From Brassica napus (Eukaryota; Streptophyta; Magnoliopsida; Brassicales; Brassicaceae), in NCBI RefSeq assembly GCF_020379485.1, contig NC_063438.1, positions 6,896,335 through 6,960,334 on the forward strand: a DNA stretch of 64,000 nucleotides, read 5' to 3'. A program made the position numbers and the translations under genes. Below are positions 5,501 through 42,976 of the stretch, one piece after another. Below the pieces are notes generated by a model that saw nothing but the letters and a program-made list of their open reading frames with translations, had not been told where the DNA came from and made no database searches. Within the stretch, counting starts at the first letter, position 1. Each line of letters opens with the position of its first letter.

Positions 5501-8148
5501 CTGCCAAAAATTAGAAAGGTCTATATATGTAAATCACCCAAAACTAATTGTAAACTCCAACTGTCATTGAGCATATACCTCTTTTGTCAGATTAGGAGTA
5601 AAAACTTGAGTATCAAGGGCAGGCGTGTCATCCGATGGCTCTCTCTCAATCTGTAAAAATTATCACGAAGTCAATCCAGAGTACGTTCTAAAGCTTTCAA
5701 ACATTAACTTAAAAATCCAAGATTTTTTTTGACCATGTACCTGCTGAGTCTGACTTGGAGTATAAACGGGAGTTTCAATACTCTTTGGAGCTATTGGAGA
5801 AGAAGGTGTCTCATTCATTTCTACTGTTTCTTTCTGCAAAACTTGACTCTGACTAGCAGGTGACTCACTTGTTAATTTCTCTCTCACAATCTGCAAAAAA
5901 ATATCAGGAATGGCCATCATGAATACATTCAACTATAATTTCTAGAATAAATATTACCTCATCATCTGGTTTTCCATCTTGATTAGGATTGGATGGCCTC
6001 TCACCGGTAGACGTTTCTGTTTCTTTCTGTCAAAAATCAGAAAAGCCTTTATATGTAAAAAAAAATCACCCAAAACTAATTTGTAAACTCCAACTGTGAA
6101 AACAATATCATTGAGCATATACCTCTTTTGTCAGATTAGGAGAGAATACTTGAGTATCAAGGGCAGGAGTTTCATCATCTGATTCATTCATTGTGTCCTG
6201 CAAAAATCAAGAATGCATTCTAGAATATGTACAAAAGCTTCCAAATATTACTTCAAAACTCAACAATATTTTATTGGTTACATACCTCATTTGTCAAATT
6301 AGGCTGTTGAGACATTGGAGATAAAGGCGTCTCACTCGATGATTGCGTGTAATCCTGCAAAAATCAGGAAGGCATTCAGGATTTTGTACAAGAATTTCCA
6401 AATATTTTCTTAAAAATTTTTGAGCATATACCTCATTTTGTTGAGACTTTGGAGATGCAGCTGATTCAATCATTGTCTCCTGCAAAAATCAGGAATGCAT
6501 TCAAGAAGTACAAAAGCTTTCCAAATATTACTTCAAAACTCAACAATATTTATTGGTTACATACCTCATGTGTCAAATTAGGCTGTTGAGACATTGGAGA
6601 TAAAGGTGTCTCACTCGATGGTTGCGTGTGAGACATTGGAGATAAAGGTGTCCCACTGGATGGTTGCGTGTGAGACATTGGAGATAAAGGTGTCCCACTG
6701 GATCGCTGTTTGTCAAATATTAGGAAGGCATTCAAGAATATGTACAAGATCTTCCAAAAAATACTTGAAAATGCAAATGTAAAAGAAGATGTTTTGAGAA
6801 TTTACCTTTTGTGTCACGTTAGTGGGAAAAACATTGCTGTTTCCTTCCAACTCTGACACACGAGCTCTAAGATGTATGTTTTCTTCTTCCAGTAATGACA
6901 TTCGATCCTTCATGCTCTTCAGATTCTCCTCCATTACCGTGATGATCCTGTTCACTTTTTCATTTACTGAATCCTCATCAATCGGAGTAGAAGCTTGGCC
7001 AGTCTCCTTATTTGCCATCATTTGAATAAGAGCATCCAATGTGTCAAATGTGTCTACACACCTATTTTCCCAGTCATCGGCTGTAATCTTGTACCCTTTC
7101 TTTGTTACATCTTTCACTGTTTCCAACTCGTCACTATATTTGTCTTCAATGGAGATATCATCTTCTGGATCATGAGGAATAGAAGGTAGTATGCAATGGA
7201 CCTTCAGCTGAGAATATTTCAAAAAAAGACCAATGAGAAACATATTAAAAAGAAGAAGCCAAATAAACTGAGAAACATATACTTGGAAAAGCTTACCTTT
7301 GTATCAGCTTCAACCTGTAAAACCCTATCAAGTGATGGATTCTCTATCTCAGTGTATTTTTCACACAAGTAAGTCGGCCCAGGAACCTCAACTGTTGGTA
7401 CACACTTACTGAACTTATTCCTTAGCAAAGGAATCGACTCTAGTATCCAAAGAAGGAATACTAGAGGATAACCTTGCAACTCAAATTTGGATTTATTCTC
7501 CAAATGATTCGCGACAGCGTTTTGAATTGACTTCAGGAGCACAATGTAAGCCTCTTTTCCCCATGGATATGTCATATCCTGTGCATTTTTCGCATATTCC
7601 AAAGGAAAACTCCCTCCTTTGCTCTTCCGCAATAATATGCTCTCTACCAGGATGAGCATTGCGAGGCATATTCTCTCCTCAGAAGCATCTTCTCTTGTGT
7701 TTCTGAGCTGGTCCACCACGTCACTTAACTTATGACTACGCCCCTTTAGCAATTCCCAATTAAATCTCTCGGTTTCCCTTCGTGGTCCTTCTAATGCACC
7801 ACTACATTTCAAGCCTGTCATCATATGAAATTCTCTTATAGAGAACCTCATTGGCTGCGCACCGAAATGGAACCAGGCTTCATTCTCCTTGACAGAAACG
7901 ATGCTTCTAGTGAGAATGGCGTAGACTATCTTTGCTGATAACTTCAATCCTCTCTCACTGAGCTTCATTACAGGTCCCAGAAATGATCCTCGGACTCTTA
8001 TCATCTCATCTGGTTTTAGGATGCTTTTGACAATAGAGATATAATCTGAACCAGAGTATTGGTTGATTGCTGACTTTTCTTTTGGCTGTGAACCAATAGG
8101 ATACTTCAGCTCTGGCAGTGCTAGTTTTAGAGGTACTGAATCTCCCAT
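2504..8148 (-). CDS. DUF1985 - coiled coil - repeat exons - tandem Agenet - Ulp1-like (C48) protein, with an in-frame stop
   Basis: A many-exon minus-strand gene. Clear exons are 8148-7297 (DUF1985, HFGAQPMRFSIREFHMMTG), 7207-6806 (acidic, then coiled coil), a run of short Ser/Pro/Thr-rich exons between 6.7 and 4.4 kb, 4360-3932 (two Agenet-like folds), 3796-3543 (basic), 3454-3374, 3251-2866 and 2773-2504 (C48-like tail). The C48 tail keeps the Asp (ITVYDCF) and the Cys (PFNCGIF), but the catalytic His position is Val (SNVWIGMEI, where HW is usual), so desumoylating activity is doubtful. Agenet 1 has a TGA at 4246-4244 where paralogue logic predicts GGA, so a full-length product needs readthrough or exon skipping. 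The right MULE end at 8791 suggests this gene is transposon cargo. Exon limits in the repeat part are approximate. Confidence 0.65.
3932..4360 (-). other. Exon with two Agenet-like domains, first one broken by TGA
   Basis: This 429-nt exon has a clean acceptor (before 4360) and donor (after 3932). The first fold contains RLLAHFQIGAEVEIL and DEIWYPGKVV; the second contains KVEAFYNNGWSSGQISMVL and ETILFKHSDLRIHREW. These match the paired plant Agenet (Tudor-like) pattern found in DUF724 and related proteins, which bind chromatin or RNA-linked partners in known cases. A TGA at 4246-4244 interrupts the line between the two folds. Confidence 0.6.
4475..4780 (-). repeat. Tandem duplication, about 150-bp period, inside the Ulp1-like gene
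   Basis: Two adjacent copies, each beginning with a CTTGTCTGAAG.TGCT.TG block and containing the shared stretch GTGGAAACTAGCTCAGTAG followed by GGTTCTGTAGTATCC. They encode Thr/Ser/Glu-rich low-complexity protein on the minus strand. Confidence 0.6.
5160..6280 (-). repeat. Duplicated exon-intron block, about 0.5-kb period
   Basis: A block starting near 5190 is repeated starting near 5700. Intron sequence is copied along with exons: GGCCATCATGAATACATTC occurs near 5380 and 5915, and ATTACCTCATCATCTGG near 5427 and 5955. Each unit codes on the minus strand for short peptides of the type ETPSSPI.PKSIE flanked by splice sites. Intron phase is preserved, so duplication lengthens the protein without shifting frame. 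Confidence 0.6.
6287..6710 (-). repeat. Reiterated SxTPLSPMS-coding exons
   Basis: Short exons repeat a Ser/Pro/Gln-rich motif (TPLSPMSHTQPSS, TPLSPMSQQPNLT). Three copies sit head to tail at 6570-6710 in one exon (45-bp period) and single copies lie in the next exons at about 6290-6355 and 6434-6479, each preceded by a near-identical TGCAAAAATCAGGAA.GCATTC intron border. The encoded region is probably unstructured. Confidence 0.55.
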
Positions 8149-8347
8149 CTTGTTTCTATCCTGCGTAAACAAGGAAAAAAAAATTTCAAACTTTTCTGGA
8201 AGGCTTTCCTGAAATAACACAAATACAAAACAACACAAAAGTCTTCATTTGCTTCGCTTGTTAATAAGAACGAGTAACACACAAATCAAAATCAAAACGC
8301 AAGCTTCCCAAATTTTAATTCAAAAACCCTAATTTTAAAAAGTTACC

Positions 8348-8800: not shown

Positions 8801-9162
8801 TGTTCTATTCTCATCTATTAGATTTCTTTGAATATATTTACTTGTGATTTATTTAGGGAATTATAAGGTAATTTCCTATTTTATATATGTAAATGTGATA
8901 AACAAGTTTGAAATAAATTTAAAATTATTTAATAAACTTTTTAAGAATTATTGTATTTCCTCCACATCTATCATCATCAATTGAAAATGGAAACTATATA
9001 TAATATGTACACGAAATATATATGCTCACGTATGTTCAAAAAAGAAATATATATGCTCACATGTTTCTTTACATACCATCATACATATGTTGGATACAAA
9101 TCCAAAACATTTTACATACTTCCTATTTTGAAAAAATATTGTAGTACACGAAATAATATTTT
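8801..9162. other. AT-rich spacer, no gene seen
   Basis: Between the putative MULE end and the CACTA element. No conserved coding, RNA or transposon signal is recognised. The last three bases (TTT, 9160-9162) are the left target duplication of the CACTA element. Confidence 0.5.
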
Positions 9163-9549
9163 CACTACAAGAAAACGTAGCAGTAACAACGAAGATTTAC
9201 GACGAAAATATTTTCTCGTAAATTTGAGTGTTTACAACGCAATTACGACGAGACCAAAATTCGTCGTAAACTCCATGGAACTTTACGACGAAAGTGTTTC
9301 GTCGTAAAGTCCATGTAAGTTTACGACGAAAGTACGTGGAAAGCGAAAATAGTCGTAAACGTTACATCGACATTACAACGAATCATGTTACCGTTATATT
9401 TAGGTGAAAACGTGTATTCAATGTGCTTTAACTTATCTAAATTCGTTGTAAAGTCGTTGTAAATATTATGTTAAAACCATGTAAAATCAATGTAAAACAT
9501 TCCTTGTAAAATCGTTGTTATATTTCAACTACCCAACTCGAAAATTTCT

Positions 9550-9606
9550 CTATATATATGTCATTTCCCACAATTCTCTTTCTCACAACACACAACTCTC
9601 TTCCTT
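9550..9606 (+). promoter_or_regulatory. TATA box and CT-rich leader in front of the hairpin
   Basis: CTATATATAT at 9550-9559 is followed by a CT/CA-rich leader (TCTCTTTCTCACAACACAC) and then the ATG of the EDM2-like arm at 9616. Distance and composition fit a plant pol II core promoter with start site near 9580. In intact CACTA elements the transposase transcript starts at a similar distance from the terminus, so the hairpin probably inherited the element's own promoter. Confidence 0.5.
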
Positions 9607-9615
9607 TCGAACTTG

Positions 9616-9879
9616 ATGGCGTTTATTGACGATGATGAAGAGGAAGACTATGTTCCTCAATCAGCCACCAATTACTATTTCGAAGATGACGATAAGGAAC
9701 CTGTGTCATTCGTCTGTCTGCCAATTCAGTGGAGCGACAAAGAGAAAGTGGACGGAAGTGCAGCTGGTTTGTACTTGAGAGGAACCTCTGACGATGGTCT
9801 TTTGCCTCTGCATAGCTTGTCAAGGCTTGGAGGTTCGACCTTTCCAACTTCAGTCTGGAGATCTCTGTTCTCACGAAGG
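9616..9879 (+). pseudogene. EDM2-like 5' coding fragment, left arm
   Basis: Starting at ATG 9616 the arm encodes an acidic N-terminus (DDDEEED), NYYFEDDDKEPVSF, LPIQWSDKEKVDGS and LYLRGTSDDGLLPLH, after which a 1-bp deletion relative to the other arm shifts the frame (SLSRLGG instead of KLVKAWRFDL). This closely resembles my recollection of the N-terminus of Arabidopsis EDM2, a PHD-finger nuclear protein that controls transposon chromatin, IBM1 and RPP7 transcripts. Only about 90 of more than 1200 codons are present, so no EDM2 protein is made. Identification is from memory of the family. Confidence 0.65.
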
Positions 9880-9890
9880 TTCGACATTAT

Positions 9891-10155
9891 CCTTCGTGAG
9901 AACAGAGATCTCCAGACTGAAGTTGGAAAGGTCGAACCTCCAAGCCTTGACAAGCTTATGCAGAGGCAAAAGACCATCGTCAGAGGTTCCTCTCAAGTAC
10001 AAACCAGCTGCACTTCCGTCCACTTTCTCCTTGTCGCTCCACTGAATTGACAGACAGACGAATGACACAGGTTCCTTATCGTCATCTTCGAAATAGTAAT
10101 TGGTGGCTGATTGTTGAACAGAGTCTTCCTCTTCATCATCATCAATAAACGCCAT
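9891..10155 (-). pseudogene. EDM2-like 5' coding fragment, right arm
   Basis: The minus strand from ATG 10155 encodes the same segment as the left arm but keeps the frame further, through GLLPLHKLVKAWRFDLSNF and LEISVLTKDN, before the palindrome centre ends homology. It differs from the left arm at a few residues (EEDSVQQ against EEDYVPQ; LSIQWS against LPIQWS). An upstream extension of the frame to 10212 lies in CACTA sequence and has no counterpart in the other arm. Confidence 0.65.
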
Positions 10156-10164
10156 CAAGTTCGA

Positions 10165-10323
10165 GAACAACCAACTGATGAAATCCTTTTGATCGACCCG
10201 CAAAACTTTCAATATGAAGATATTCCCGAAGATGCGACAGATGAAGCACGTGAAGACGAGTTCGAGAGAAGCGACGATGATGATTGTAATGATAGTGATG
10301 AGAATGAAAACGATTTAGAGTGA
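10165..10323 (+). pseudogene. Acidic tail of a CACTA transposase-type reading frame
   Basis: Directly right of the hairpin an open stretch encodes REQPTDEILLIDPQNFQYED followed by an Asp/Glu/Asn-rich end and TGA at 10321-10323. The position after the promoter and the composition suggest the 3' end of the element's original large gene, whose body was replaced by the captured fragment. No catalytic residues remain. Confidence 0.4.
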
Positions 10324-10617
10324 TGTAATATTGATGAGAACGAAAACGATTTAGAGTGATGTAATATATGTAACAAATGTTGTATTTCTCTATTGTAATG
10401 TATGTTTAAAGAAATATGTTTTTTTACCATCTTAATGTATGTGTAACAAATGTTGTTTTCTATAATTTTTCATCTTTAGTTTTTAAAAAATTTATTTGGA
10501 GTTTTAGGGTTTAAGTTGGAGAAAGAGTAAGAAGTAGTAAAGAATAAGGTATGATGTTAGATGATATGTGACTTTGGGGTTTAGGGATTTCATTCTCGGT
10601 GTTTAGGGTTAAGTGTC

Positions 10618-10885
10618 GTAAAATCCTTGTAAAAATAATACGGACGTGGTAATTTCGTCGTAAATGGAAAAAGACGGGCCTAGTAAATTCGTTGTAAATG
10701 AGAAAACGCGGGCCTGGTAAATTCGTCGTAAATGGAAAAGCCTGGTAAACCTATTCAACGTAATTTCGTCGTAAATCGAGAAACACGGGCCAGGTAATTT
10801 CGTCGTAAATGGAAAAACACGGGCCAGGTAACTTCGTCGTAAATGGAAAAACGCGGGCCTGGTAAATTCGTCGTAATATTACGTC
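10618..10885 (+). repeat. Subterminal tandem array of CACTA element 1
   Basis: About seven imperfect copies of a unit of 35-40 bp contain GTCGTAAATGG(A)AAAAACGCGGGCC(T/A)GGTAA. They share the CGTCGTAAA core seen at both element ends and probably extend the protein-binding subterminal region. The stretch just before (10500-10610) has several TTTAGGG telomere-like heptamers, likely incidental. Confidence 0.6.
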
Positions 10886-11778
10886 GCGTTTACGGCGAAT
10901 CGTTATCTATATAATGAGACGCCGAGAGCGAGGCTACCTCGTTCATTCCTCCCAAACTCCTTTGCTCTCCCTCTAAGGTAAACTCTCTCTTCTCTCTCTT
11001 TTTTTTTAAGTTAGTTTAGGTGATTAATTAGTTAGATAATTAGTTTAGATGATTAGTTAGGTAATTAGTTTAAGTGATTAGTTAGGTGACGGAATACTAG
11101 TTTAGGTGATTAGTTAGGTAACAGAATAATTTTTTAATTATGCAGAGAATGTTGAGTGAGAGATGAGCCGCTCTTGGGTTGCCAGTACGAGATCCCCAAG
11201 AGTCCGATCCAACCCGTCAACAGCCGAGCAACCCCACCGACTACTTCGATGATATGTAGTTTTTTTTATATTTCTGTTTGTATTATGAATTTAAATATTA
11301 TTGTATGACTTTTAAATGCTTTTTTGTAATATGTTTTTTTTATTTTCATATTTCGTTTTAAAATTATTTTAAATTCTGAATTTTAAATAAATTCAAATTT
11401 ATATTTGAGGTTAAAAAAAACAAATTTATTATATATATTAATAAGAATCGATGTAAACTCCACGTAAATGTTTACGATTGATTAACGTCGAAAAATTTAC
11501 GAGGGTTTTACATCGAAAAGTTTACGTGTTCTTTACAACGAAAGTATTTACGTCTGCTTTACATCGAAACTTTACGTGGAGTTTACCACGAAGTATTACG
11601 TCTCGTTTACGACGAAACGATGCCCTGCGCTTTACGAGGAATATATTTCGTCGTAAACTCCGTTACGACGGACGTTTTACGATGAAATGTCTTTCGAGGT
11701 TAATTCGTCGTAACATCCCGTTTACAACGTATATTGCCCTCGTAAAAAATATGTTTTCTTGTAGTGTTTAGAAAACAT

Positions 11779-23864: not shown

Positions 23865-24331
23865 TGCTCTCCCTTCACTACAAGAAAACAGCGGTATTCT
23901 GACGGACGTTCCGACGGAAAATGAATTCCTCGGAATATACCGAGGCATTTCCGAGGCAATTCCGAGGAAACACAAAATTTTGCTTCCTCGGAATTCCGTC
24001 GGAATATTCCGACGGAATTCCGAGGAAAATTCATTTCGTCGGAATATTCCGACGGAATACCGAGGAAACTAGTATTCCTCGGAAAAAACCGATGAATTCC
24101 GAGGAAATATTATAGACGTTAGAGAGCCGTTGGAGAGCCGTTGGGGGGATTTTAAAAATTCCGAGGAAATTCCGACGAACTAGCCGTTTGCATCGGAATT
24201 CCGTCGGAATTTCCTCGGACCGTCGGCAGGATTTCAACTATAAATACAAGCACCCCTCTTCCTCTTCATTCACACCATATCTTCATCCTCCCTCTCACTT
24301 TCTTTACACACGAATTTGATTCATAAAAAAC

Positions 24332-25651
24332 ATGTCTTCTTCAAATTATTTTCGTTCTTGGATCGATCGACCTCATTTGGATCCGAACACGAGATTGCTT
24401 ACGGAAGAATACCAACAAGGTATAACCGAATTCATGGGGTTAGTTCACCGACAACCGGAAGCAAAAACAGGTATGTTAAGATGTCCTTGCTCTAATTGTA
24501 AAAATAAAAAAGTTATTAAAGAATGGGATGTTTGGACTCATTTATATTTGAGTGGGTTTACACGAAGTTACAAAATTTGGTATCATCATGGAGAAACTGA
24601 TTATGAACTTGGTAGTACTAGCGAACCTCAGCCAGCGGTTAGATTAGAAGATCCAATTAGAACGGATGTAGATTACGGTGTAGGTACTGAGCAGATGGTA
24701 AATGATCATTTTAGAGGGGAAGATTTACCCAATGCCGAAGCTAAGAGATTTTATGATATGTTGGATGCTGGAAAGCAACCATTGTACGAAGGTTGCAGAG
24801 ATGGTCATTCAGCTTTATCATCTGCTACAAGATTGATGGGCATTAAGACGGATTATAATTTGGCTGAAGACTGTGTGGATGCGATTGCTGATTATGTAAA
24901 AGGTATTCTACCCGAAGATAATGTAGCTCCTGGCTCATACTACGAGGTTCAGAAACTCGTAGCTGGTCTTGGTTTATCGTATCAGGTAATAGATGTATGC
25001 AGAGACAACTGCATGATTTATTGGAGGGCGGATGAACAGCGGGTTTCATGCAAATTTTGTGGGAAGCCTCGTTATAAAGATACGAGTGGAAGAGTTCCAG
25101 TACCATATAAAAGGATGTGGTATTTGCCTTTGACGGAAAGGTTGCAGAGGCTGTATCTGTCTGAACGCACAGCGCAACCAATGAGATGGCATGCGGAGCA
25201 CTCAACAGATGGTGAGATCAGACATCCTTCAGATGCAAAAGCGTGGAAGCATTTCCAATCAAAGTATCCCGACTTTGCGTATGAGAGAAGAAATGTCTAC
25301 CTTGGATTATGTACTGATGGTTTCAGCCCGTTTGGCAAGAGTGGAAGACAATATTCTCTATGGCCAGTCATTCTTACACCATACAACCTACCCCCAAACT
25401 TGTGCTTGCGACGAGAGTTTTTGTTTCTCTCGATTCTCGTTCCCGGACCAGAGCATCCTAAGAGATCACTTGATGTGTTTCTTCAGCCACTAATATATGA
25501 GTTGCAACAACTATGGACTCAAGGTGCTGAAACATACGATGTTTCGTATAAAGAAAACTTTCAAATGCGGGCAGTACTAATGTGGACAATAAGTGATTTT
25601 CCAGCAGTACTAATGTGGACAATAAGTGATTTTCCAGTTTTTTTTTTTTAA
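24332..25651 (+). CDS. Truncated TNP2-type CACTA transposase
   Basis: 439 codons from ATG 24332. Residues about 10-90 form the transposase-associated zinc-binding domain (MLRCPCSNCKNKKVIKEW, then DVWTHLYLSGFTRSYKIWY). The following part enters the tnp2 transposase domain (SYYEVQKLVAGLGLSYQVID, CMIYWR, WYLPLTERLQRLY, and PNLCLRREFLFLSILVPGP where the family has a conserved segment). It stops where the family continues past LMWTISDFPAYG: after a 33-bp tandem duplication the frame runs into poly-T and a stop. The usual transposase is about 700 residues or more and the DDE region is incomplete, so it should not be active by itself. A short spliced transcript remains possible. Confidence 0.8.
   Translation: MSSSNYFRSWIDRPHLDPNTRLLTEEYQQGITEFMGLVHRQPEAKTGMLRCPCSNCKNKKVIKEWDVWTHLYLSGFTRSYKIWYHHGETDYELGSTSEPQPAVRLEDPIRTDVDYGVGTEQMVNDHFRGEDLPNAEAKRFYDMLDAGKQPLYEGCRDGHSALSSATRLMGIKTDYNLAEDCVDAIADYVKGILPEDNVAPGSYYEVQKLVAGLGLSYQVIDVCRDNCMIYWRADEQRVSCKFCGKPRYKDTSGRVPVPYKRMWYLPLTERLQRLYLSERTAQPMRWHAEHSTDGEIRHPSDAKAWKHFQSKYPDFAYERRNVYLGLCTDGFSPFGKSGRQYSLWPVILTPYNLPPNLCLRREFLFLSILVPGPEHPKRSLDVFLQPLIYELQQLWTQGAETYDVSYKENFQMRAVLMWTISDFPAVLMWTISDFPVFFF
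25571..25636 (+). repeat. 33-bp tandem duplication at the transposase truncation point
   Basis: Two exact adjacent copies of a 33-bp unit starting GCAGTACTAATGTGGAC and ending TGATTTTCCA. It repeats residues AVLMWTISDFP in frame exactly at the end of the preserved transposase sequence, which suggests it arose with the internal deletion. Confidence 0.9.
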
Positions 25652-25728
25652 AAGTTCAATTTAATTATTTCTTGATTTTTATTTTATCATCAATTTAAAT
25701 TATCTAAACTTGGTTATTTATATTTCAG

Positions 25729-25995
25729 TCGGTTCCAAAGAAAAAGGGACGTTTGGTCGGTTTGGGTCGTCGCTCCCGGTCGGCTGCTCCTTCTTCTGCA
25801 CCACATGCGTATGTTGATCCAGAAGTTCTTACGGCTCAGCTGAAGGACAAGGATGATCGGATATCTGCGTTGGAGACTCAGATGGCAGCTCAACAGGCGG
25901 GCTATGAGACCCAGAAGAGGCTGAACGAGCAGATGATGGAGATGATGAAGAGGATGTACCCGAACGAGACGTTCCCGAACATTCAAGACCCGTAG
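25729..25995 (+). pseudogene. C-terminal exon of the second CACTA gene (TNPA-like)
   Basis: An exon following an AG acceptor (TATATTTCAG, ending 25728) encodes SVPKKKGRLVGLGRRSRSA, then a coiled coil (LTAQLKDKDDRISALETQMA ... MMEMMKRMYP) and ends NIQDP-stop. This is the usual end of plant Ptta/En/Spm second-ORF proteins that bind subterminal repeats. The upstream exons are deleted, so it is a remnant, perhaps spliced onto the truncated transposase. Confidence 0.65.
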
Positions 25996-26840
25996 TTTTT
26001 TTTTTCCAAAAACTCTGAATGTTTTATTTAAATTTGAATATTATCTACTATGTTTTATTTTATGTTTTATTCAATTTTAATTTTAAATTTTAAAAATTTT
26101 AATTTTTAAAAATAAAATTAATTTTAAAAAAAAAAAAAAATTTTTTAAAAATAAATTTTTTTCAAAATTCCGAGGGAATGGAGTTCCTCGGAAAATTCCG
26201 AGGAACTTTCTCCCCTCGGCAAATTCCGACGAACTTTAAGTTCCTCGGAATTTTCTGAGGGAAAAAGTTCCTCGGAATTTTCCGAGAAACTCCACTCCCT
26301 CGGAATTTTCCGAGGGAGAGGAGTTTCTCGGAAAAGTCCGAGGAACAAATGTTCCTCGGTATTTTCCGATAAACATTCCGAGGAATATTTCGTCGAAACT
26401 TCCGAAGATTGGGCCATCGGAATTCCCTCGGTATTTTCCGAGGAACCTTCCGACGAACTTCGTGTCCTCGGAGTATCCTCGGAATTTTGTTTCCTCGGAA
26501 TTCCGTCGGAAAATTCCGACGGAATTCCGAGGAATTATGAATTTCCGAGGAGTTATTTCCGAGGACTTTTTTCGTCGGTATGTCCTCGGAATAGCGTTAT
26601 TCCGACGACATACCGACGATTTTTTCCCTCAGTATCCCGATGTTTTCTTGTAGTGCTTGTTCCTTGATCCATTGCTCTCTTGCTCACTCTCTCTTCTCTC
26701 TTAACTTTCTTTGTAATAAGTTGTGTCCCACAACAATGTACTCTAAAAAACGGTATAACTTTTAACATTTAGACCAAAAAAAAACTATAATGATTTTCAT
26801 TCAGTTTTTAGTTTTTCTTACATACATCTATAAACTTACA

Positions 26841-39739: not shown

Positions 39740-42700
39740 ATGGCGTCGTCTCCCATAGTTGACATCGGAGATAACGTAAATCGAAATAATATGGGGTCGT
39801 TACCGGAAATGATGTTTGCTGCCGGAGAAGAGCCCGTCGGAGTCAGGGTTCTGACCTACCAATCATCTCGAGCGATAAAACAAATAATCAAAGGGCTTGA
39901 TGAAGAAGAAATACTCTCTATACGGGCATCGTCTTTTGGGAAGATAATCGACATTGTAGATAAGCCATCGTTTTCGGGAAGATTCGCGAGGTACATGATG
40001 TCAAGGCAGCTGAAGGTAAAGAAGAAGCACGAGGTGTGCTTTAGGTTTGCCGGACAGCCAATTAGGTTCTCGCTGAGGGAGTTTGCTATAGTAACTGGGC
40101 TTCCATGTGGTACATTTCCACCTAAATGGAAGATGAAGATTAAAGAGACTATTACCGAGAAGCCATACTGGCCGTCGTTGTATGGGAAAGTGGAGGTTGT
40201 GACTGTAGCTTCCGTAATCAAGATGCTCCGCCGAAGAACAGTAAGGGATAGAGAAACCCGGATTAAGTTTGCATGTCTGGCTATTCTCTCTTCTGTCCTG
40301 CTACCCACAAGCCTGAATACGAAGATCTCCAGAGAGCATGCTGAGGCCATTGAGGATCTGGATGACTTCTATTCATTCCCGTGGGGGAGATGGGCGTACG
40401 AGATGCTGATGAATAGTATAAAAGAAAGAGATGAGATCTCACTGTCGCAAAATACTATTGCCGTGAAGGGCTTCGCTCTAGCTCTTCAGCTAGTACTGGT
40501 AGAAGCTGTACCCTCTTTAACAGAAGTAGTCCAAGAAACATGTTCTTCTTCAGAATCAGAAAGCGCGGACGATGTTGAGGAAGGGTCTGAAAGGTCATCA
40601 AAAAAGCAAACGCTAAGCCCTGCTCACGCCCGTAACCTCGACAAGAAAACTGAGGTTGTGTAATAAACAGTTCTTATCCAAGAACAATCGAAAATATATA
40701 TAAAGTGTGATTATTATGTTCGTAAATGAGAGTAACGTGTGTTTCTCAGCTGGTGGTTTATGTTGCATTGCAGGTGTATGTGAAGAGCATAATTGATGAA
40801 GATCCAAGCCGACCATTGGATGAGAGTACGCTCGGGTGGTCTGATGATGTGGAAGATGTTGGGGTTGACAATCTAGTGAAGCTTATAAATGAAGGCTATA
40901 AGTTTAGTGCCTCTATGTTTAAAGGTGGAGCCACAAAGTCTGATGTGGAGAGGATGAGAGAGGATGCAAAAGTACGAGGTAAAGAGAAGAAAAGTAGCAA
41001 AGCACCAGTGAAACCAACCGATGTAGATGGAGGAAATTGTGAAGTTGCTGCTGTTTTGATGGATATGATAAAGCCGGATCTGGATAGGATTGATGGGAAT
41101 GTGTCATCTACAATGAGAGCCGTTGATGATATGATCACAAAGATAGGAGTGTAGCATGGGGCCATAAAAACAGAGGTGGGAGAATGGATGGGAAAAATAA
41201 AAGAGGATATTCAGGGGCAGATTAGCTTGGCTCTTAAAGAAGCAGTTGGACCATCAACAGATCCTCCAGGAGTTCCTATAGTCACACCAACTGCCCCGAT
41301 AAATCCAGTAGGTGGAGGAAGTGTAGAGGAAGCATTTTATCAGGATACCATCCGAAACATTATGGGGAGCATCGAACAGTACAGGACGCCTCTGCGCCAG
41401 AACATCCAGGTTCAGGTGAGTATGAAACTAACTAATTTACTAATAATGTAGTTCCCGGGTATTGAGTTAATAGATTATTTGAAACACATAATTAGGAGGT
41501 CGGCGTTGTTGATGGACGTCAAGACGTTGGAGCCGAGGCCAGCGTCCCTATTGTTCCACATAACGACGGGACTGCTCTATTAGCATCGAGCCACACTCAT
41601 ATGAGGAAGGATGGAGTCGATGAGATAAAGGTCAGTTTGTAAACTCATGGTGTCTTACTACATATAGGAGATGGTGATTGAGAATGAATTTGTAAATAGA
41701 AGATGACATTATTATGGTTACTAGGTAACCGACAATGCGACAAAGGAACAAGCACCTGCCACTCCTAGTTTTTCACTCGGTCTCACTCAGCAGGAGAATA
41801 GTCCTTGTAATGAGCAGTTTGGGACAGTAAGGCTAGCTGCAGATCTAAATATTGCGCATGACGAAGGGAAGGAGGATGTGGAGGCAAATAACGTGTGTAG
41901 GAAAAGCAAGAGACAAAAAAATATTTCCCACCAATTTGATGGCCGATTACGAATGCGGGCATAACATAGTGGGTCCTGGTCGTAAAGCCCCTGTGTTGCT
42001 GTTTGTGTCGTCAAACAGTGAAGATACTCTAACAAAGTACCAGAAATTAGGGGAGAAGCTTCTGAGCTCATTGTAAGTAAATCACAAGCGGTCCATAAAT
42101 AGCCGTATTTTTTTTTATAAGTAAAACCTTCTAGAATATGTAAATCCAGAATCAAATATAAGGATAAAGACGTTGTTAAAATAACCGGATCAGACATTAG
42201 TTATGTGTATCCAGCTTCTGTAGTATACAACCGGATTTAAAGGGAGGTTTTAACGCAATGCTTGGTTTTGTAGTGTTATCAATGTGGCCGGACTATCCGT
42301 GTCGGATAAGGACATTAAGGACATCGCTGAAAGATCCCGTCCTCTCGCCGCAAAGGTTGTCGATCTACTCACCCGTATACTGCGTACAGTTCAAGACAAA
42401 CATCTAATCAGTGAAAGGAGTACAAGAGATGAGTTCTTTGATACCAAATTTGCTGGATCTCTGGCAAGAAATTACTCCAAGTTCGCCAAGTGCAAGAACA
42501 AAGAAGGTCACGTGTTCCCAAAAGGTACATTGGATTTTCTATACAATATAAAGGATTCAATATGTATGATACGTCGGTTTTACCTGCCATTCAACTTTGA
42601 CAAAAAACACTGGGTGGGAGTTTGTATTGACTGCGAGAAGTGGAAAATATATGTCCTCGATTGCAACACGTCGATTAAGAGTGACAAGGATATTGTGAAA

Positions 42701-42976
42701 GACCTTACACCCATAGCGGAGGCTTTTCTGTATCTGCTCAAACAGGCGTGTGGGTCGGCCTACGAGGAGAATTTAGATCCAATGGTTATTGAGAGGGTAA
42801 AAGGAGTAGGACAAAACATGGAAGAAAGCGTCTCCGGCATTACTGCAATGGTGCTAATGTGGAATCATTCAATTGGAGGGTTGGAGGGTTGCCGATCAGT
42901 CAATGCTGATCATGTAATCTTAGAAGCAAAGGGGGCAGCTGTGATGGCATATGAGCTCCATGAGGAGCTGAAGTGA
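39740..42976 (+). CDS. DUF1985/Ulp1-like gene 3, with stop and frameshift
   Basis: Exon 1 (39740-40654, 305 codons) has DUF1985 (FRFAGQPIRFSLREFAIVTG, then FPWGRWAYEMLMNSI). Exon 2 starts after TTGCATTGCAG (40774) and stays open through a TAG at 41152-41154 to about 41415 (EWMGKIKEDIQGQISLAL). Further exons at 41496-41630 and 41725-42073 are low complexity and end in FPTNLMADYECG ... KYQKLGEKLLSS; an extra A in the A-run at 41911-41917 shifts the frame. The last exon (about 42272-42976) is an open C48-like domain: His (KKHWVGVCID) and Asp (IYVLDCN) are present, but the Cys position is Ser (ESVSGITAMVLM). Other plant members also carry Ser here as I recall, so loss of protease chemistry may predate this copy. 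The two lesions make a full product unlikely. Confidence 0.65.

Follow-up and report, generated by a model that had tools for sequence, protein, structure and literature searches.

An inverted repeat of the EDM2 5′ exon in a CACTA transposon family of Brassica napus: a possible RNA cassette against a host silencing regulator

Results

The window element and its hairpin

The window, i.e. the whole stretch of 64 000 nucleotides of Brassica napus DNA analysed here, sits on the A-type chromosome C116 (we call A-type and C-type the chromosomes taken, by inference, as B. napus A01-A10 and C01-C09). It contains a non-autonomous CACTA element in which a segment of a host gene is present twice, in opposite orientations. 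The features are as follows.

9160..9162, target-site duplication TTT, left copy
9163..11766, + strand, non-autonomous CACTA element of 2604 bp with termini CACTACAAGAAAA and TTTTCTTGTAGTG
9234..9595, + strand, subterminal repeats and a promoter-like block with TATATATAT and a CT-rich leader
9551..9559, + strand, TATA-box-like TATATATAT, about 50 bases 5′ of the hairpin, of putative promoter activity
9607..9879, + strand, hairpin arm 1, EDM2 5′ exon in sense, with one frameshifting deletion
9880..9890, loop of 11 bp
9891..10164, - strand, hairpin arm 2, EDM2 5′ exon, EDM2 frame kept
10164..11142, + strand, transposase 3′ region, in pieces 85-98% identical to the relatives L012 and L013
10165..10323, + strand, relic comprising the final 52 codons and the stop of the transposase 3′ ORF, directly abutting arm 2
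11607..11766, + strand, 3′ terminal region, 77-81% identical to the full-length element L018
11767..11769, target-site duplication TTT, right copy

A first-pass annotation of this DNA had described two arms of about 273 bp inverted around an 11-bp loop, within a CACTA element with intact ends and TTT duplications, and these coordinates proved exact: the arms are identical at 267 of 273 aligned positions, with one 1-bp gap (arm-to-arm identity 97.4%), the element ends lie at 9163 and 11766, and TTT is found on both sides. As RNA, the 9607-10164 segment has a predicted fold of -525 kcal/mol; the inverted repeat is real and chance is excluded. The annotation had also stated that both arms code for the same N-terminal segment. 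Arm 2 is indeed open throughout on the minus strand (MAFIDDDEEEDSVQQSATNYYFEDDDKEPVSF...HKLVKAWRFDLSNFSLEISVLTKDNV), but in arm 1 the frame is shifted after LPLH by a 1-bp deletion, so that the coding identity of the arms does not extend over their full length.

The relic at 10165..10323 corresponds to the end of the ORF that carries DUF4216 in full-length L018, and the remaining transposase is absent from the window. The element has retained its 5′ end, the promoter block and the hairpin, and then jumps to the last 52 transposase codons; judged by its sequence, it is a deletion derivative of a larger CACTA family. The long apex of its hairpin has a single genome occurrence within three mismatches, and for this reason the window hairpin was rejected as the amplified form.

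The window contains other elements. At 23876-26655 there is a second CACTA element with intact ends and a 439-aa ORF (24332-25651) for Transposase_21 and Transpos_assoc, whose DNA identity to the hairpin family is only ~71-73% over the longer matched pieces. ORFs at 332-1468, 7219-8238 and 39740-42976 resemble what we take to be proteins of other plant transposons.

Source of the arms

Used as a protein query, the arm matched 12 proteins, among them P0004, a Camelina protein annotated ENHANCED DOWNY MILDEW 2-like, and P0001, an exon with Pfam PF12047 (92% identity). In the window's own genome, a search with the arm gave 77 matches, from 40 of 140 candidates scored, and the best ones devoid of an inverted partner were on C38 (EDM2_A) and C262 (EDM2_C). 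The C38 gene has a DNMT1-RFD exon with NSD-type PHD fingers downstream and is adjoined by an MBOAT gene; the corresponding exons are present at the C262 locus. Arabidopsis EDM2 has neighbours of the same kind. Arm 1 is 95.6% identical to EDM2_A and 94.9% to EDM2_C, and arm 2, with the loop side, 95.4% and 94.6%, respectively; the matched EDM2 segment begins shortly 5′ of the start codon. On this sequence evidence, the source of the arms is the 5′ coding exon of EDM2. EDM2 had been named by the first-pass annotation; with ~95% identity to two genes of the same genome and the Camelina EDM2-like protein among the matches, the assignment stands. The annotation had set well under about 85% as the identity too low for siRNA targeting. 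A Pfam search with the arm alone gave one sub-threshold match only, and a PDB search with the arm gave 0 matches.

A third match, 87% identical to the window arm, lies ~6 kb from EDM2_A on C38 (2880-3152 of locus L009). It is a partial duplicate of the EDM2 5′ exon, apparently broken, amid repeated small ORFs that by eye are secreted-protein-like.

Hairpin-bearing relatives

A 33-base pattern, taken from the apex of the commoner and shorter (trimmed) hairpin, was found at 130 genome sites within two mismatches, against 0 sites for the reversed control pattern. At least 100 sites are exact (all 100 among the matches listed); three of the remaining 30 are, by reading, EDM2_A and the two window arms. 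All 13 hairpin loci L012-L024 have a CACTA end 396-447 bp 5′ of the first arm's match, and for further A-type copies this end lies 547-563 bp 5′ of the apex in 14 cases out of 16 and was not found in the other two.

When eight loci were extended downstream, six turned out to be complete elements of 7754-7803 bp with both CACTA ends, while for L012 and L013 no 3′ end with the full motif was found. The 3-bp target-site duplication is perfect in five of the six (it is TAA/TAT in L020), and five are mutually 99.4-99.9% identical, the exception being L015 at ~92.6%. The first transposase ORF, counted from its ATG, has 724 aa in five of them and 681 aa in L016. In L018 this ORF contains Transposase_21 (PF02992, E 4e-77) and Transpos_assoc, and ORFs for DUF4218 and DUF4216 come after it; the Pfam matches besides PF02992 are PF13963, PF13960 and PF13952, and a 115-aa piece of a second gene had no Pfam match. 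From their sequence, the complete relatives are apparently autonomous. A search of L018 and L012 against Rfam gave no family at its threshold. Of 28 fragments, each 300 bases long and covering a trimmed hairpin, 27 have predicted stems of 114-131 pairs, and L023, where part of arm 2 is lost, has one of 105 pairs. L021 and L023 are hairpin elements with internal deletions, and it is the deletion in L023 that cuts arm 2.

Four database entries from B. napus, B. carinata and B. rapa that are labelled hypothetical proteins (P0002, P0008, P0009 and P0012) look by eye like gene models that run through EDM2 hairpins, sense then antisense, and so like hairpins seem to be present in those species. The continuation of the B. 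rapa model, P0009, is identical in every letter to the window translated from 9881 onward to the first stop, and a like element is thus present in B. rapa.

A copied promoter-like block

In L018 (7.77 kb) the hairpin and the transposase ATG are each preceded by a block that contains TCTATATATATATGTCATTTCCCACAACTCTCTTC together with a CT-rich leader, the two copies being identical at 239 of 260 aligned bases. In the window, the 9234-9595 segment in front of the hairpin is identical at 303 of 322 aligned bases to the L018 block that lies before the transposase start codon. Since the block before the hairpin matches that of the transposase, the hairpin begins about where the transposase leader would continue. 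The TATA-like sequence of these duplicated blocks and their position suggest that they are promoters.

Match to EDM2 and sequence constraint

The window hairpin shares with EDM2_A 101 identical 21-mers in antisense and 77 in sense, and with EDM2_C 97 in antisense. For L018, a young hairpin, the numbers are 29 antisense and 2 sense for EDM2_A, and 22 antisense for EDM2_C. Uninterrupted antisense identity to EDM2_A extends over at most 68 nt in window arm 2 and 49 nt in L018, in the latter at EDM2_A coding nt 122-170; to EDM2_C it reaches 42 nt in L018. A perfect antisense 49-mer match to EDM2 is found in 25 of 28 trimmed hairpins, a count that covers neither the window nor L012 (longest runs of 31 and 39 nt). 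Under random placement of changes, a 49-nt run has a probability of ~0.007 (17 changes over 143 sites) or ~0.05 (12 over 137), which is weak evidence given that the run was chosen post hoc.

Divergence between subfamilies was compared after L023, L036 and L039 had been dropped. Between L018 and L012 it is 6.2 and 7.8% in the arms and 7.3-8.9% in the flanks; between L018 and L034, 10.1 and 4.7% versus 5.2-9.6%; between L018 and L047, 2.3 and 3.1% versus 3.1-3.7%. The arms thus diverge about as much as the flanking non-coding DNA, sometimes slightly less. The two arms of L018 are 87.5% identical to each other, without repair, and selection on base pairing was rejected because the arms drift. In the alignment of arms from trimmed hairpins (L023 dropped), the arms group by position, first with first and second with second, which suggests a single inversion followed by drift. 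The EDM2 frame, read from the conserved ATG, stops after 17 codons in L018, L015, L013 and L014, and after 38 in L012. As the protein frame is broken in all five copies translated, anything kept would be kept as RNA or DNA, not as protein.

Hairpin-less sisters and recent bursts

The junction between promoter block and transposase leader was found at 232 sites within three mismatches. The exact sites, 82 in number, are on C-type chromosomes and one small contig, and the exact hairpin pattern is present 300-700 bp upstream of 40 of them and absent from 42. We examined 50 of these 82 loci, 25 with and 25 without hairpin. At the 25 hairpin-less loci the CACTA end lies 416-441 bp 5′ of the leader, i.e. 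there is one promoter block; with one block and no hairpin in the sisters, the hairpin unit is a ~600-bp addition made up of the hairpin and a block copy.

How this addition relates to the backbone can be seen by comparing the C-type hairpin element L018 with the older hairpin element L013 and with hairpin-less L059. Over bases 717-800, L018 and L013 differ at 0 of 84 positions, whereas L059 is only ~85% identical to L018 over bases 752-797. From about base 800 on, L059 and L018 are 98.8% identical, and over bases 1106-1620 L059 differs from L018 at 1 of 515 positions and L013 at 22 of 511. The most economical explanation is that a hairpin-less backbone acquired a hairpin module on C-type chromosomes, and that the resulting chimera then multiplied.

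For the comparison of ages, the rearranged L021 and L056, one per class, were dropped, leaving 24 copies of each. The mean difference is 0.28% among hairpin copies and 1.44% among hairpin-less copies; an identical neighbour exists for 18 of the former and 0 of the latter. Tree-building placed 23 of the 24 hairpin copies together in a single nested clade (support 0.885), with L015 amid the hairpin-less ones. A Mann-Whitney value for the age comparison takes no account of shared descent and was set aside.

A second leader variant has 29 exact sites, 25 of which were compared (24 A-type and one small contig; four on small contigs were left out). Set against the hairpin sites listed, 23 of the 25 have the exact hairpin pattern 420 bp upstream. 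For this variant 100 of 181 sites were listed; among those with one mismatch, on A-type chromosomes (C72:18387 left out) 8 of 25 have the exact hairpin pattern and 17 are without it, and on C-type chromosomes 0 of the 45 listed have it, although mismatched hairpins would escape such a search. Four of these 45 C-type copies, when compared, were 4.2-5.7% apart, and are therefore older. Among six A-type hairpin copies compared, five show no difference over ~360 bp and the sixth is 1.1% different; L048 and L049, outside this comparison, are 2.1 and 3.1% from L034 over leader and coding start. The two hairpin lineages, C-type and A-type, thus appear from these distances to be the youngest among the lineages seen. 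The backbones of the two bursts are ~10% apart over ~360 bp including the variable leader. An apparent difference of 16-18% in bases 1041-1240 falls mostly in A-rich leader and was not used.

Discussion

The first-pass annotation had proposed a counter-defence by the transposon. Part of this proposal is strengthened by what we found, a repeated cassette that stands behind a copied block in recent elements, and part is made more doubtful, because EDM2 acts both ways on transposons and hairpin-less sisters are numerous. The feature is repeated and structured, and a counter-defence role is plausible. In our estimate there is close to an even chance that the hairpin is an RNA silencing-suppressor cassette of a CACTA family, aimed at EDM2. 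A fragment of the EDM2 5′ exon would have been captured and inverted immediately 3′ of a duplicated transposase promoter block. From this duplicate, transcription would produce an RNA that folds back into a stem of some 115-270 bp, to be cut by DICER-LIKE enzymes into small RNAs; those from arm 2, antisense to the EDM2 mRNA, would lower EDM2 while the transposase is also expressed, and lowered EDM2 would in turn ease the heterochromatin control of the element. We infer promoter activity, transcription, dicing, EDM2 knock-down and benefit to the element from the arrangement of the DNA. Several observations support the anti-EDM2 reading: the arms are ~95% identical to both EDM2 homeologs, with perfect antisense stretches; the hairpin sits behind a copied block in apparently autonomous, recently multiplied elements; the module was joined to another backbone, and there was a second burst on A-type chromosomes; and the protein reading is broken in all amplified or older copies translated. 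In a stronger version, the anti-EDM2 cassette would be portable, would bring along its own transposase promoter copy, and would have passed from one backbone to another and caused a burst in each subgenome separately; this we regard as somewhat less likely than not.

Several points weaken the anti-EDM2 reading. The evidence from bursts consists of two events, which are few. Small RNAs from the hairpin would match the element itself too, and could silence it. Another difficulty is the biology of EDM2 itself. According to a published Arabidopsis study, EDM2 affects over 2000 transposable elements, promoting silencing marks at Mu1 and lowering them at COPIA4, and in edm2-2 H3K9me2 is gained at 1124 transposons and lost at 612, mostly retrotransposons (PMC7529245). 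In Arabidopsis, loss of EDM2 thus leads more transposons to gain than to lose this mark. Other points favour at the same time a serious rival: the hairpin could be a neutral passenger, born when a CACTA element captured a gene fragment that was inverted by accident, and hitch-hiking on lineages that multiply for other reasons. Arms diverging about as their flanks do, and drifting apart from each other, are what such a passenger would show, and hairpin-less sisters with nearly the same transposase start persist and are equally numerous (25 of the 50 loci, besides the 45 listed C-type sites, none with the exact hairpin). Capture of this kind has already been described for Pack-CACTA elements (PMC13317346). 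However, chance alone accounts less readily for a hairpin that occurs in two separate bursts with backbones ~10% apart, that was joined to a hairpin-less backbone, that is placed exactly 3′ of a copied transposase promoter block, and that has kept its 49-nt perfect EDM2 match in most trimmed copies, with the post hoc probabilities given above. We consider this rival a reasonable contender, with somewhat less than an even chance.

One may also imagine that small RNAs from the hairpin methylate and silence their own family in cis, to the service of the host, the identity with EDM2 being incidental. The hairpin lies near promoter blocks common to the copies, so that 24-nt products would target the family, but among the lineages seen, those with the hairpin multiplied most recently, the opposite of what is expected from a self-silencer, and we find this unlikely. 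That a truncated N-terminal EDM2 peptide acts as a dominant-negative protein, as the open frame of window arm 2 and the database gene models read as running through such hairpins might suggest, is very improbable and largely refuted by the broken frames (17 or 38 codons in the relatives), and in the window the arm whose frame stays open runs antisense to the promoter block.

If the anti-EDM2 reading is retained, how does the hairpin compare with known systems? Few cases of RNA-based counter-defence by transposons were found in the literature, namely miR820 and TART-A, and among the titles and abstracts listed in searches of open-licence full texts there was no report of an EDM2-derived transposon hairpin. 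According to PMC3459959, rice miR820 comes from a fold-back derived from OsDRM2 within CACTA elements, gives 22- and 24-nt RNA and target cleavage, and its elements underwent a burst of identical sequences, with at least 18 copies in a BB Oryza genome. Both systems thus combine a CACTA element, a fold-back from a host gene of epigenetic silencing and a burst in copy number. They differ in that miR820 is a miRNA precursor, for which small RNA, target cleavage and effect were shown (PMC3459959), whereas the Brassica hairpin, described here as DNA, is a longer inverted repeat of EDM2 behind a copied promoter block, with at least 100 exact apex sites. In Drosophila, the abstract of PMC7785250 describes TART-A as having captured a portion of nxf2, with antisense small RNAs proposed to repress that gene; it resembles our case as a transposon with part of a host gene that restrains transposons, but it is a telomeric element, acts through piRNAs, and its captured portion is named in that abstract with no inverted repeat. 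Vandal elements with a VANC gene likewise carry their counter-defence, which in their case is a protein that targets related elements for loss of methylation and not an RNA against a host gene (PMC13317346). Lastly, host coding fragments between CACTA ends are found in Pack-CACTA and Pack-TYPE elements (PMC8903248, PMC13317346). The window copy, non-autonomous and with a captured coding fragment, fits the Pack-CACTA type; the Brassica fragment is unlike these in being an inverted repeat, and in being present also in elements with a transposase gene, such as the six complete relatives.

Should the anti-EDM2 reading be true, this would be a transposon suppressor directed against a histone-reading silencing regulator rather than a DNA methylase. 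Elements with the hairpin and their hairpin-less sisters exist side by side as dozens of closely related copies in one genome, so that the effect of an RNA cassette on the success of a transposon can be tested. If real, it would also mean that EDM2 could be adjusted by a large family of transposons, and in Arabidopsis EDM2 affects 59 NLR immune-receptor genes as well (PMC7529245).
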